Part shown: piece by piece, positions 6,081 to 43,735 of the stretch | Layout: each line of letters begins with the position of its first letter | Position numbering within the stretch: position 1 is the stretch's first letter | Assembly: GCA_030603495.1 (NCBI GenBank) | Contig: JAUVXR010000011.1 | Span: forward strand, 11,310 to 75,309 | DNA: 64,000 nucleotides | Source of the DNA: a bacterium | GTDB lineage: Bacteria; Armatimonadota; Zipacnadia; Zipacnadales; Zipacnadaceae | Reading direction: 5' to 3' | Notes under the pieces: model-generated | What the model was told of the DNA's origin: nothing | Database searches by the model: none | The model's input: the letters and a program-made list of their open reading frames with translations, nothing else | Made by a program: the position numbers and the translations under genes

Positions 6081-6974
6081 GTGGAAACAGGCGCTCCGAC
6101 ACCCGACGAAGTCCGCCAGATGCCGCTTAGCCGCCGCACGCAGTGGCTGAGGCGGCATTTCGATTTCCGGCCGCGCAAATCGCTCGGCCAGAACTTCCTG
6201 AGGGACGGGCATGTGGCCACGCACCTCGCCCAGGCTGCTGCACAATTCGCGCCACAGCGGGTGATCGAAATTGGGCCGGGCCTGGGGGCATTGACCGTCC
6301 CCTTGGCCGAGAGCAATTGGGACTTAGTAGCCTTTGAGAGTGACCGCAGACTATGCGAGGTCCTGCACTGGCTGTTTTCTGACTGCGAGCAGGTCGAGAT
6401 ACGCCAGGGCGACTTTCTCGCGGCGGACTTGACTGATCTCGCCGGCCCTGATAGCGTTGTAGTGGGCAACCTGCCCTACTACATCACCACGCCGATCCTG
6501 GAGAAGGTTTTCGAGACGCATCCTGGCTTCGCCGGGCTGGTCATCACTGTCCAGCAGGAGGTCGCGGAGCGTATCCGCGCCCAGCCGGGCACCAAGCAAT
6601 ACGGCTCTTTGACAATATTCTGCCGCTACTACGCGGCCAACATAGAGAGACTGACGACGCTGCCACCACAGGCCTTCTGGCCCTCGCCGCAGGTCAGCTC
6701 CGCAGCGCTACGTCTGACGCTGCGGGCCGAGCCTCCTGACGGGATAGAATCAGAGACGGCCTTTTTCGCTGCCGTGCGGGGCGCTTTCGCCCACCGGCGC
6801 AAGACCCTGCGCAACTCGCTGAAGACGGCTACCCTGCTCGAGCTGTCCGCCGAACAGGTCGAAGCTCTTCTGACCGAGGCGGGCATTGACGGCAGCCGAC
6901 GCGGCGAGACACTCGATTTCGGCGAGTTTGTCAGCCTGGGCAATGCTCTGCACGACATCAGGGAAGGAACTTGA
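6081..6974 (+). CDS. rsmA: 16S rRNA dimethyladenosine transferase RsmA (KsgA)
   Basis: The enzyme dimethylates two adjacent adenines in the 3' hairpin of 16S rRNA during small-subunit maturation, using S-adenosylmethionine. KSLGQNFL, the SAM loop EIGPGLGALT and the NLPYYITTP catalytic motif are all present, followed by the helical RNA-binding C-terminal domain. The frame is open from a TTG at 6042, but that codon is part of the -35 box. GTG 6081 or ATG 6120 (starting MPLSRRTQW) are more likely starts, and neither has a strong ribosome site. The stop overlaps the ispE start by four bases, indicating translational coupling. Confidence 0.93.
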   Translation: METGAPTPDEVRQMPLSRRTQWLRRHFDFRPRKSLGQNFLRDGHVATHLAQAAAQFAPQRVIEIGPGLGALTVPLAESNWDLVAFESDRRLCEVLHWLFSDCEQVEIRQGDFLAADLTDLAGPDSVVVGNLPYYITTPILEKVFETHPGFAGLVITVQQEVAERIRAQPGTKQYGSLTIFCRYYAANIERLTTLPPQAFWPSPQVSSAALRLTLRAEPPDGIESETAFFAAVRGAFAHRRKTLRNSLKTATLLELSAEQVEALLTEAGIDGSRRGETLDFGEFVSLGNALHDIREGT

Positions 6975-38915: not shown

Positions 38916-41315
38916 ATGACTGAGCAATCCGTGACCTTGGAGATTACCGGTATGAACTGTGCGGCTTGCGCGCAGACGATTGAGAAGTTCCTGCGTCGCG
39001 TGCCTGGGGTTGTTGAGGCGAATGTCAACTTCGCTGCTGAGACGGCGCGAGTCACCTTCGACCCGCAGCAGGTAGGAGCCCCGCTACTCATTAAGGCAGT
39101 GGACGATGCAGGCTATGGCGCACGCGTACAAGGCCGACGGCCGCAGCGAGTGCGTCTGCGCATTGGCGACATGACCTGTGCCTCTTGCGTCCAGCGCATC
39201 GAACGCCGCCTCAAGAATGCTCCCGGTGTCATCTCGGCGACAGTCAACCTGGCTGCTGAGAGCGCCGATGTGACGTTCGACCCCGCGCAAACCGGCATCA
39301 AGCAGCTTATCGCCGTGGTACAGGATACTGGTTACACCGCCGAAACTGCGGGCGAGCAACCTCAGGACGAGCAGGAACAAGCGCGTGCCGCTGAAATCCG
39401 CCGCCAGGGACGGCTGTTTGTCCTAGGAGCGGTGGTCAGTGTTCCGTTATTCATCCTCAGTGTGTGGTTTGAGTTCCCGAGCAGGCTCTATGTGCTGTTT
39501 GCTATGGCTACGGTTGTTCAGATCATGCTGGGCTGGCAGTATTATCGCAACTCTTATCGGGCGCTGAAGCACGGCAGCGCTAATATGGACGTGCTCGTTG
39601 CCATGGGCTCCTCGGCTGCCTATCTATACAGCGTCTATGTCACATTCCTTGTCCAGGACCAGGTGGACGTCTACTACGACACGGGTGCTGTCATCCTTAC
39701 ACTCATCACTCTGGGGCGCTTCCTGGAGGCGCGCGCCAAGGGTCGCACCTCCGCGGCAATCCGCAAGCTGATGCAACTGGCCCCGGTCCAGGCCTCGGTA
39801 GTCCGCGATGGGGAAGAGGTCAAAGTTTCGCTTCAGCAAGTCGAGGTGGGCGACCTAATCGTGGTTCGGCCCGGAGAGAAGATTGCGGTTGATGGCGAGG
39901 TGGTCGAGGGTCACTCCACAGTGGACGAGTCGATGATAACCGGTGAGAGTATCCCTGTGGATAAGGCTGCCGGCGATGGAGTTATTGGCGGCACTATCAA
40001 CAAGACCGGCACATTCAAGTTCCAGGCCACCCGCGTAGGCAGCGAGACGGCCCTGCAGCAAATCATACGTCTAGTCCAGGAAGCGCAGGGCACCAAGCCG
40101 CCTATCCAGCGGCTGGCCGATACGGTTGCCGCCTACTTTGTGCCGGCGGTCATTGCTATTGCCCTCCTGACTTTCCTCGGCTGGCTGCTGGCGGGAGTCG
40201 GTTTGGCACATGCTCTGATCCCCGCGGTGGCCGTGCTGGTGATTGCCTGTCCCTGTGCTCTGGGACTGGCCACACCGACGGCAGTGATGGTAGGCACCGG
40301 CTTGGGCGCGGACTACGGGATTCTCATCAAGCAGGCTAGCGCTCTAGAGATGGTGGGCCGCCTCGATACTATCCTTTTCGACAAAACCGGCACCCTTACC
40401 CGCGGGCAGCCCGAAGTCACTGAGTTGCGCACACTAACCGATGATCTCTCGACCGATGACTTGCTGCGCCTCGCCGCAGCAGTCGAGAATCCTTCGGAAC
40501 ACCCCCTGGGCCAGGCGATTGTGGCCCGGGCCAAACAGACCAACCTGGAGATTGCCGCAGTGGATGACTTTGAGGCGCTGGCGGGCCGGGGGGTGCGCGC
40601 GACGGTAGACGGGCAGCAGATTCTGGTGGGCAGCAACGGGCTGATGCACGAAGCGGGCGTGGATGTCTCTTCTGCGCAGGAAGCTAAGAGCAGCCTGGAA
40701 CAGCAGGGCAACACAACCCTGCTGGTGGCAAGAGACGGCCAGCTGGTCGGACTGGTAGCTCTGGCTGACACGCTCAAACCGGGAGCGATGCGGGCCGTCT
40801 CCCGTCTGCAACAGATGGGCCTGGATACCTATCTCATCACGGGCGACAATCGGCGTACCGGCGAAGCTATCGGCCAGCAGTTGGGTATGGACAACGTGCT
40901 TGCCGAAGTCCTGCCCGAGCAGAAGAGAGACCAGGTGAAACAGCTTCAGCAGCAGGGCCACCGCGTCGCGATGGTGGGCGACGGCATCAACGACGCGCCG
41001 GCGCTGGCGCAGGCCGACGTGGGGATTGCACTGGGCACCGGCACAGATGTAGCGATGGAGGCGGGAGAGATCACGCTGGTCAGCGGCGATCCGCTGGGCG
41101 TAGTGCGCGCTATACTGCTGAGCCGCCGGACTCTGACTCATATCAAGCAGAATCTGTTCCTGGCGTTCTTCTACAACATTGCCGCTATCCCATTGGCCGC
41201 CGCGGGTCTGCTGAATCCGATGATTGCCGCCGCCGCGATGGCGGCCTCCTCGGTGTCTGTGGTATCCAATTCGCTGCGCCTGCGCCGCTACTCCCCGATT
41301 AAGGGCGAAGGATAG
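38916..41315 (+). CDS. copA: Copper-exporting P-type ATPase
   Basis: A 799-residue P1B-type ATPase that exports Cu(I) from the cytoplasm. Two N-terminal heavy-metal domains have GMNCAAC (about residue 14) and DMTCASC (about 87). The membrane channel contains the CPC metal site ([12 protein letters not shown]). DKTGTLT holds the phosphorylated aspartate, HP (SEHPLGQAI) binds nucleotide, and [10 protein letters not shown] closes the hinge. The ATG has AGGAGGA upstream. It follows hcp after 42 bases and may be co-transcribed. The ArsR gene downstream runs in the opposite direction. Confidence 0.95.
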
Positions 41316-41349
41316 AGGTCATCCGGCTGCAGAAAGCAAAAAAAGGCGA

Positions 41350-41378
41350 CTGGGGCCCCTCATTGAGCTGGGCCCCAG
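41350..41378 (-). terminator. Terminator between copA and the ArsR operon
   Basis: CTGGGGCCC and GGGCCCCAG form a 9-bp stem. Read leftward, the hairpin is followed by TCGCC and then seven Ts, a proper intrinsic terminator for the ArsR-peptide operon. Rightward there is no T-tract, so copA termination is less sure. Confidence 0.8.
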
Positions 41379-41390
41379 CCGCGAATACTG

Positions 41391-41513
41391 CTACCGGCAA
41401 CACGACTTCTTTGGCTTTTCCTCTTCACAACACGTCTCTGCCTTTTTCTCTTCGCACGTCTTCTTCTCTTCGCACGTCTCTTCCTTCTTGGGTGCGCAGC
41501 ACTCCTTACACAT
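41391..41513 (-). CDS. 40-residue cysteine-rich peptide, metallothionein-like
   Basis: The frame is short but has a perfect ribosome site (AAGGAGGTG, seven bases before the ATG at 41513). The peptide has nine cysteines (positions 2, 5, 6, 14, 20, 28, 29, 38, 39), arranged in C-x2-CC and CC pairs, in a background of Lys and Glu with almost no hydrophobic residues. It should therefore not fold without metal. It lies 43 bases after an ArsR-family regulator gene on the same strand and before a terminator, next to copA. Likely a metal-binding buffer or chaperone induced by the metal. No homology to a named metallothionein family is claimed. Confidence 0.75.
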   Translation of the reverse strand: MCKECCAPKKEETCEEKKTCEEKKAETCCEEEKPKKSCCR

Positions 41514-41556
41514 CTGTGTCACCTCCTTATAGGGAATCGGCAATGATTCCACGGAA

Positions 41557-41880
41557 TTAGTCGCTGACCATCAACTCCAGGGTCTCACTGTTGCTCAGGC
41601 ACTGGGTCTTGAGGATTTCGTCGAGCAACTCAAGCATCTGATTAACGGTTTCGTCGGCAATAGTGTAGTAGACTCGCGTGCCCTCTTTGCGCGTCGCGAC
41701 CAGTCCGCTGGCGCGCAGAGTATTCAGGTGGCACGATATAGTAGACTGATTCATGCCCAGGGTGCCAGCCATCTCGCAAACTGTCATCTCCCCGTCGCTA
41801 AGCAGATCCAAAATGTGCAACCTGGTATGCGAAGCAAGAGCTTTCAGAACGCCGACCCTAAGTTGGTGAACGCACTTGAT
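41557..41880 (-). CDS. ArsR/SmtB-family metal-responsive repressor
   Basis: The core (LKALASHTRLHILDLL, EMAGTLGMNQSTISCHLNTLRASGLV, TRVYYTI) is a standard ArsR winged helix. Cysteines that could sense metal lie in KCVHQL, TVCEMA and TQC. The only usual start codon in frame is TTG at 41820, which would remove the first helix and one cysteine. The family-like sequence continues upstream to an ATC at 41880, behind AGGTAGGGG, and then meets a stop. Either a rare ATC start or a one-base error or frameshift is present. Promoter and operator lie upstream; the Cys-rich peptide gene follows. Confidence 0.85.
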   Translation of the reverse strand: MKCVHQLRVGVLKALASHTRLHILDLLSDGEMTVCEMAGTLGMNQSTISCHLNTLRASGLVATRKEGTRVYYTIADETVNQMLELLDEILKTQCLSNSETLELMVSD

Positions 41881-41906: not shown

Positions 41907-41961
41907 ATTGTAATATTGCAATAGCTAAATGTATTGTATCACAATGCCTGACCTCTGTCAA
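41907..41961 (-). promoter_or_regulatory. Promoter and operator of the ArsR-peptide operon
   Basis: On the minus strand, TTGACA (41956-41961) and TACAAT (41933-41938) are 17 bases apart. At the predicted transcript start lies ATTGTAATATTGCAAT (41907-41922), a 16-base palindrome with one mismatched pair, like ArsR/SmtB operators. Binding there would block transcription. Confidence 0.75.
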
Positions 41962-41980: not shown

Positions 41981-42595
41981 TCACGCGAGGGTGGTAGCGG
42001 CAACCGCAGCCAGGCGGGCGGCGACATCGTCCCAGTTGATTACGTCGAAGAAGCCTGCGGTGAACTCGGGACGGCGGTTCTGGTACTGCAGGTAGTAGGC
42101 GTGCTCCCAGACGTCCAGAACGAGAATGGGAGTTACTCCCCACTGGGCCAGATTCTGGTGCTTCTCGGCCTGCAGAATTACCAATTGTGAACCTAAGGGC
42201 TGCCACGCCAGTACACCCCACCCCGACCCTTGGACGCTGTTGGTCGCGGCGAGAAACTGGGCCTTGAAGGTAGCGAAAGAACCGAAGTCTTTCTCGATTT
42301 GGGCGGCCAGTTCGCACGTGGGTTCGCCTCCGCCATCCGGACTCATGTTCTGCCAGAACAGACTATGCAACAGATGGCCGGAGTAGTTGAAGGCCAACGC
42401 GTCGCACAAGCCTCGAATAGCCGAGAAATCTCCCGACTGCTGAGCGGCTTTTATCTTCTCCTCCGCCTCATTGAGGCCCTTAACATACCCCGCGTGGTGC
42501 TTGTCGTGATGCAGATGCATCGTCTCTTCATTCAGAAACGGCTCCAGGGCATCATAAGCATACGGCAGGTCAGGTAGTTGGTGTGCCATAGTCAT
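41981..42595 (-). CDS. sodB: Iron/manganese superoxide dismutase
   Basis: A 204-residue cytoplasmic superoxide dismutase. The metal ligands are visible as His in HHDKHHAGYVKGLN, His in NYSGHLLHSLFW, and Asp and His in LDVWEHAYYLQY. An insert-free core typical of the Fe/Mn family surrounds them. Metal choice cannot be settled by eye. AAGGGGG lies before two close ATGs (42595 and 42589). It is the last gene of a leftward run of oxygen-defence genes. Confidence 0.95.
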   Translation of the reverse strand: MTMAHQLPDLPYAYDALEPFLNEETMHLHHDKHHAGYVKGLNEAEEKIKAAQQSGDFSAIRGLCDALAFNYSGHLLHSLFWQNMSPDGGGEPTCELAAQIEKDFGSFATFKAQFLAATNSVQGSGWGVLAWQPLGSQLVILQAEKHQNLAQWGVTPILVLDVWEHAYYLQYQNRRPEFTAGFFDVINWDDVAARLAAVAATTLA

Positions 42596-42673
42596 AGCCC
42601 CCTTCGTAGGTTTGGCCTACACGCAGTTCCACCTGGCTCCGGACTGTACCATCCGAACAGCTCTTGACCGTGT

Positions 42674-43207
42674 TTACTCCGTGTCGTCGGCGTGGATATC
42701 CAGATGATCAGTCTCAATCTCTACTAATGCCCCAAAGAACTCTTGCATCCGCGGCTCGGTGGCCTCGTCGCGGAATCTGGCGTAGGCCTGGATAGCGCGG
42801 TCTTCCCGCTCGTACCCCTCGCGCGAGTTCTCCACCCCGTCGGCGCTGCAAGTGGCCGGCGATAGCTCGGGCTTGTCTATCTTCAGGGACTTGCAGATAG
42901 CCGAGGCGTGTTCGGCTTCCACCTTCATCAAGCACTTGAACTTGGCCAGCATATACTCGTCGCCAGCCGCTGCTGCTTCGTCCCGCGCACAGGCATAGAA
43001 AGCAGCATTACCCATCTCTAGGTCCAGAGCCGCTTCCAAGTTCTCCTGCGAAACCTCAGAGAGGGCCACATCAAACTCGCCGCTGTCCCAGTCGTGCGCA
43101 TCAATGATGTACTTGGCCTCCGCCCCGCAGAAGGGACAATGAGTCAGCGGGCTTTCCCCAATATACGGGTCCCCACATATTCGGCATCGAAATACCTTCA
43201 CTCTCAT
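42674..43207 (-). CDS. Reverse rubrerythrin
   Basis: The 177-residue protein has the domains of rubrerythrin in the opposite order. A rubredoxin-like CRIC-x12-CPFC region comes at residues 8-25, then a ferritin-like four-helix domain with diiron ligands (ENLEAALDLEMGNAAFY, EAEHASAI, EDRAIQAYARF, EIETDHLDI). Reverse rubrerythrins reduce peroxide and oxygen in anaerobes such as Clostridium. It lies between the SOD gene and a second ferritin-like gene, with short gaps that suit one operon. Confidence 0.9.
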   Translation of the reverse strand: MRVKVFRCRICGDPYIGESPLTHCPFCGAEAKYIIDAHDWDSGEFDVALSEVSQENLEAALDLEMGNAAFYACARDEAAAAGDEYMLAKFKCLMKVEAEHASAICKSLKIDKPELSPATCSADGVENSREGYEREDRAIQAYARFRDEATEPRMQEFFGALVEIETDHLDIHADDTE

Positions 43208-43252
43208 AGTCAGCTTCTTTCTTTGCGCTGGTTAGGTAGGATTCGCCCGATG

Positions 43253-43735
43253 CTATTCCAGCGCTGCTTTGGCTTTCATAATGCGGGATACGTGCGCCTT
43301 TTCCTCTGCAATGATCTCGTTGACCTGGTCAATGGCACTGGCTGGCACCATCTCCCGCATCTCGTACAGAAAGATGATTGTGTCTTTCTCGAAATTAAGG
43401 GTGAAATGGAGGATGTCCTGCGCGGACATGTCCCTGACGAGCGCCTCCGCCTCCTCGGGCCTAGGCATGAACCGGGAGCCCAACAGAGCGTCAATGAACT
43501 CGGCCCTCTCGGCCGGCCACTCCTCGGGCTCCTGGGGTGGCGGTAGGTTCTGCCCCATCTGGCGAAAGATCCGCTCGTGCGTCTGCTCTTCGCCGGCCAG
43601 CCATTCGCACAGGACTCTAACCTGCGGGTTGTCAGCGTGCTGAGCCGCTGCTTCGTAGAAGACGTGGCCAGCCTGTTCGGTCTGGATAGCGATATCAACC
43701 ATCTGGTTTGCCGAAAACATTGCGTGTTGTGCCAT
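43253..43735 (-). CDS. Ferritin-like diiron protein (rubrerythrin-related)
   Basis: A 160-residue four-helix protein with the E-x6-Y and ExxH ligand pairs of the rubrerythrin superfamily (IAIQTEQAGHVFYE, EEQTHERIFRQM, FTLNFEKDTIIFLYEM, EEKAHVSRIM) but no rubredoxin domain. GGGAGG precedes the ATG at 43735. It is the first gene of the leftward set with reverse rubrerythrin and SOD. Likely a peroxidase or an iron-handling partner. Confidence 0.85.
   Translation of the reverse strand: MAQHAMFSANQMVDIAIQTEQAGHVFYEAAAQHADNPQVRVLCEWLAGEEQTHERIFRQMGQNLPPPQEPEEWPAERAEFIDALLGSRFMPRPEEAEALVRDMSAQDILHFTLNFEKDTIIFLYEMREMVPASAIDQVNEIIAEEKAHVSRIMKAKAALE

Follow-up and report, generated by a model that had tools for sequence, protein, structure and literature searches.

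A two-gene operon, in which a gene for an ArsR-family repressor is followed by one for a short, cysteine-rich peptide, is present in nine genomes of Zipacnadia (Armatimonadota), including that of the window, the 64-kb stretch analysed here, which belongs to a 2.67-Mb draft genome that is 94% complete. We consider it probable (at roughly 0.7), judging from sequence, that the operon is an autoregulated pairing of an ArsR repressor with a metallothionein-like peptide that would bind metal, and that together they constitute a self-contained detoxification module. That the peptide frame is a real gene, in a real operon with arsR, appears near certain from its conserved anatomy. The class Zipacnadia (Armatimonadota) comes from anoxic sediment of the Guaymas Basin, and a survey of classes that include it recorded ArsR in 53 of 77 genomes, ArsC in 16 and ArsB in 21, with the supposition that ArsR controls arsenic detoxification (PMC10290634). 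In at least these nine genomes the evident target of this ArsR, as read from operon and operator, would be a cysteine-rich peptide and not an arsenic pump. The module would pair a clean single-target regulator with a candidate sink in an abundant uncultured sediment class; tested function is known for few bacterial metallothioneins, and genes of 27-40 codons are readily overlooked by gene callers.

Anatomy of the operon

The first-pass annotation of this DNA had described a 40-residue frame with nine cysteines, a ribosome site and an intrinsic terminator, together with an arsR gene lying 43 bases ahead of it on the same strand, and all of these are borne out by the sequence (Table 1). The arsR stop codon occupies 41559-41557, leaving a gap of exactly 43 bases to the peptide ATG, which AAGGAGGTGA precedes. 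The window contains 1,370 start-to-stop readings of 25-60 codons, and only the four in-frame starts of the peptide ORF reach at least 15% cysteine. The background of the peptide, previously characterised as Lys/Glu-only, is indeed rich in these two residues, but they account for 53% of the composition and are not exclusive.

Table 1. Features of the arsR-peptide operon, in window coordinates
Feature	Position	Strand	Remarks
Sigma-70-type promoter, TTGACA-17-TACAAT	41933..41961	-	TG before the -10; spacing the same in nine loci
Operator, 16-bp near-palindrome ATTGCAATATTACAAT	41907..41922	.	10 nt past the -10; exact match found once genome-wide
ArsR/SmtB-family repressor gene, 107 aa	41557..41880	-	apparent ATC start at 41880; invariant C3, C50 and C94
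Shine-Dalgarno AAGGAGGTG	41520..41528	-	6-nt spacer; GGAGGTG with 6-nt spacer in 9/9 loci
Cys/Lys/Glu-rich 40-aa peptide gene	41391..41513	-	ATG at 41513, TAG at 41391; 9 Cys; product MCKECCAPKKEETCEEKKTCEEKKAETCCEEEKPKKSCCR
Intrinsic terminator, GC-rich hairpin then T7	41338..41383	-	-32.1 kcal/mol; position kept in relatives

The layout is common to all nine loci: TTGACA and a -10 box are set 17 nt apart, a 16-bp ATTGNAATNTNNCAAT site begins after exactly 10 nt more, and then come 22-26 nt, the ArsR frame, GGAGGTG, 6 nt, a start codon and the peptide, with terminator hairpins of -20 to -32 kcal/mol that carry a T-rich tail. As the nine loci themselves supplied the operator pattern, its presence in them is by construction; elsewhere in the genome the exact operator is absent in eight of the nine, and G016 has one extra copy, inside an aldo/keto-reductase-like frame. 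A one-mismatch search returned further scattered sites in most genomes. As judged by presence of the site, the operon carries the inverted-repeat operator at its promoter that would be expected of an autoregulated unit. Given that the exact operator occurs once per genome, G016 apart, the evident regulon of the repressor would be its own operon, and the peptide looks like the only output of this candidate repressor besides itself, weaker sites being possible.

The ArsR frame seems to begin at ATC in the window genome, G010 and G013 (L011, L061), and at ATG in G001, G016 and G036. In the former three the first in-frame ATG, GTG or TTG is the TTG of L21, although codons at the N-terminus are still conserved. 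It seems that ATC serves here as a rare start codon, which would keep the repressor low, the alternative being an internal TTG start.

Relatives of the peptide and selection upon it

Used as a query, the peptide returned two clear relatives, in G001 (MCKECCAPKKEEEKYEDEKEEKCCEEEKPKKSCCQ) and G010 (MCKECCAPKKEEKCEEKKAEKCEEEKPKKSCCK). Used as a query, ArsR returned nine orthologs (about 73% identity or more, window included) among 41 genomes of the order, and the search beside ArsR genes that had been proposed as a check places a peptide frame 43-59 nt downstream in all nine of these close orthologs, intact in eight. The additional peptides are those of G011 (MCKECCEPKKEEKKEEKCEEKKEKKSCCK) and G004 (MCGCCEPKKEKECCEPKQEECCPEEKKEEKCEEEKKSCCE, with a close copy in G006), and the GTG-started peptides of G016 and G036 (e.g., VGKCCKPKKEDKCCDKKAEKKEKKSCS). 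A frame-breaking change, named in advance as evidence against the gene, does occur in G013, where an in-frame TAA is the seventh codon, but eight operons are intact; the codons past this TAA still fit the family, which suggests either a recent stop or a fault of the assembly. The ArsR-linked peptides have 27-40 residues with 5-10 cysteines, Lys and Glu exceed half of the composition, and a single Tyr (G001) is the only aromatic residue, so that they are short, cysteine-rich and aromatic-poor in the manner of a broad-sense metallothionein.

A pattern search of 291 genomes of the phylum added the G014 peptide (MSAKSCCGPKKEEKKEEKKEVKKGCCSKK), and a search with the latter added that of G009 (MCAKSCCGGVKKEEKKEEKKDEKKGCCGKK). 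In both genomes a shorter peptide, with 4-5 cysteines (4-10 over all relatives), stands alone behind its own promoter-like sequence without ArsR directly in front, the upstream sequence covered in G014 being only about 170 bases. Their leaders contain inverted repeats (AGGAGCGACCGCTCCT in G014, AGAAGCGACCGCTTCT in G009) whose two arms vary together, and which may be a further operator or else a hairpin in the RNA. Genus g4 genomes retain a related peptide unaccompanied by the window-type ArsR. Matches to CCxPK in G112, G052, G135, G162, G094 and G031 were rejected as chance frames outside the family. No family member was found in plasmids and viral contigs, nor in the phyla to which the Bacilli MAG L060 (392 genomes) and the Actinomycetota MAG L053 (396 genomes) belong, the two pattern matches in these genomes being unlike the peptide. 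Searches by tblastn over genome and viral contigs gave candidates of which none was confirmed, owing to a threshold that is strict for such a short, low-complexity peptide.

Purifying selection on the peptide and on its cysteines is evident from sequence comparison. The contrast of synonymous with non-synonymous change, also proposed beforehand, gave pN/pS of 0.03-0.37 over ten peptide pairs (Nei-Gojobori style), where counts are small, pairs are non-independent and the peptide middle is loosely aligned. Across the same ten pairs, cysteine columns show no change in six, one in three and two in one, cysteines being rarely lost. All length differences among the peptides amount to whole codons.

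Searches of Pfam, NCBIfam, PHROG and the PDB gave no family or relative for the peptide, and no report of it was found in the literature searched. The earlier description of it as an undescribed peptide holds across the libraries searched, and cysteine is its conserved feature. PF02069 (Metallothio_Pro) had no match at the peptide locus among the 41 genomes of the order and none over the cut-off genome-wide, while a control search found its match in Synechococcus elongatus; HMMER filters can lose short low-complexity peptides, and a missing match is not proof of no relation. AlphaFold predicted no confident fold (mean pLDDT 55, with a helix at 14-28 only), a low pLDDT being neutral for a metal-free metallothionein.

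Repressor cysteines, proposed mechanism and known systems

The repressor matches Pfam HTH_5 (PF01022; E 3e-16, 59.4 bits against a cut-off of 22) and NCBIfam HTH_metalloreg (NF033788; E 6e-28, 96.6 bits against a cut-off of 55). In an alignment of the nine orthologs C3, C50 and C94 are invariant, and there is no conserved alpha-5 His of the kind that marks SmtB/CzrA zinc sensors, whose ligands in that helix are Asp/His...His/Glu. The Cys-x-Cys type site of ArsR/CadC alpha-3(N) sensors is likewise absent, a single C35 being found in alpha-3, with Gln in G011 and Arg in G036. C50 falls within STISCHL, which lines up with HlyU and NolR chains over what would be, by the fold, their DNA-reading helix. 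With cysteines as its only conserved candidate ligands, this ArsR suggests a thiophilic ion or sulfur species. Relatives at about 52% identity (G034, G041, G017; L067, L068, L069) keep the recognition-helix and C-terminal cysteines, but in place of the peptide they are followed by genes that look, by eye, like those of nitroreductases or flavodoxins.

We propose that the repressor sits on the single operator just past the -10 box and silences the operon that encodes it until a thiophilic metal or metalloid ion (Cd, Pb, Hg, Cu(I), As(III) or Sb(III)) binds its cysteines, whereupon it would be released. The mRNA would then carry two messages, one for a repressor whose start is weak (ATC in the window) and one for a peptide with a near-perfect ribosome site, so that the peptide would be made in excess of the repressor. 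The peptide would act as a metallothionein-like sink, protecting the cell by binding the ion until its free level falls and repression returns. Its presumed metal-binding clusters are C-x-x-CC or CC near the N-terminus and CC or C at the C-terminus, with extra C or CC in the Lys/Glu linker. Counterpoints are that the 4-5 cysteines of the G014 and G009 forms are few for a metal-thiolate cluster, that a stop follows codon 6 in G013, and that the related peptide in genus g4 is kept without the window-type ArsR. A more specific version is held only tentatively: the peptide may be a new lineage-specific metal-buffering micropeptide, with cysteine pairs at the ends of a helix-forming Lys/Glu linker, and the repressor a new ArsR sensor with C50 as a ligand in the DNA-reading helix, such that metal would directly block DNA contact, in a unit of one regulator, one operator and one micropeptide. 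Three invariant cysteines, one in this presumed helix, would make this ArsR a tractable case in which to find a new sensor site.

Metallothioneins controlled by ArsR-family repressors are a known arrangement, as in the smtB/smtA divergon and the bxmR/bmtA operon (PMC8790569). The present operon would bear a close working resemblance to both SmtB/SmtA and BxmR/BmtA. With the Synechococcus system (SmtB/SmtA; PF02069) it shares a repressor, an inverted repeat at the promoter and a short, cysteine-rich peptide of similar cysteine number; smtB and smtA are divergent, however, whereas arsR and the peptide gene form one operon in the window. SmtA has His ligands and a zinc-finger-like fold, while the window peptide has no His, has a Lys/Glu linker, and is not matched by the SmtA family model; further, SmtB carries the alpha-5 His site that is not conserved in the window's ArsR. 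The ArsD-related VcpD (NF047871) and ArsD itself resemble the peptide in having vicinal cysteine pairs, with which ArsD binds As(III)/Sb(III), but ArsD, at about three times the length, is a folded protein, and the match to VcpD is at chance level (E 4.1). MymT of Mycobacterium tuberculosis has another type of regulator and presumably another sequence. MymT is comparable as a small cysteine-rich metallothionein of a non-cyanobacterium (PMC7387436), and BxmR/BmtA of Oscillatoria brevis as a repressor and metallothionein arranged as an operon (PMC8790569), BmtA being a cyanobacterial metallothionein and the window peptide having no detectable relation to PF02069.

Alternative readings and the genomic neighbourhood

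The first-pass annotation placed the operon beside copA and took peptide, regulator and copper pump together to suggest a Cu, Zn, Cd or As response. The ArsR-peptide operon stands by its anatomy, but copA (38916-41315, plus strand) is convergent and hence outside it, adjoins it in only three of nine genomes (the window's, G001 and G013), is missing from the flank in G010, G004, G006, G011, G016 and G036, and has no operator of its own. As the conserved unit is ArsR and peptide only, the copper argument falls, and the copA neighbour says little about the metal. The same pattern makes it improbable that the peptide is a chaperone delivering Cu(I) to the neighbouring CopA pump, as adjacency in three genomes might suggest; nor did the peptide match a CopZ/HMA model. 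We give a similarly small chance to the peptide being a regulator of its own repressor, which would take metal from ArsR or bind it and so end the response, rather than provide tolerance: in favour of this, the operon yields nothing else and its operator is found at no further site, but the related peptide occurs without window-type ArsR in two genomes.

Unlikely, if less so, is a reactive-sulfur or redox module, in which ArsR would sense persulfides or disulfides as BigR and SqrR do, and the peptide would be a thiol buffer or persulfide sink in sulfidic sediment. ArsR has a sub-threshold NCBIfam match to BigR (E 5e-15, 55 bits against a cut-off of 155), and its PDB sequence relatives include the ArsR-family entries 6o8k-6o8o, which we take to be SqrR. 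However, by alignment ranges and the residue numbers of those proteins, the ArsR cysteines appear to lie off the BigR/SqrR pair positions. A superoxide dismutase (SOD) gene adjoins the operon in three genomes (the window's, G010 and G013), an adjacency that is not conserved, other genomes having unrelated flanks that include sulfatase-like and epimerase-like genes (by eye). Habitat is compatible with a sulfur role, the sediment from which the class comes being anoxic, and anaerobic sulfite reductase is encoded in most of its genomes (PMC10290634). The least probable reading, to which we attach very little weight, is that the locus is not a protein gene but a conserved 3' RNA element or chance ORF. 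Both ORF ends are identical in DNA among the window genome, G001 and G010, and the G013 stop is in frame, as this would allow; set against it are the synonymous excess, the in-frame length differences, the ribosome site and start kept in all loci, and the lack of an Rfam match for the locus.

Upstream of arsR, at 41981-43735 on the minus strand, SOD is accompanied by a rubrerythrin with a rubredoxin-like domain and a second rubrerythrin-family gene, a row of oxygen-defence genes in what is expected to be an anaerobe. The arsR-peptide cassette of G010 is flanked on either side by a copy of the 21-bp TCGCCGCCCGCCTGGCTGCGG (L011:5592-5612 and 6349-6369), one of which falls in the end of the SOD gene; the window copy is at 42004-42024, and in G001 foreign upstream sequence joins at this 21-mer as well. 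The 21-mer has the look of a joint at which the cassette recombined.
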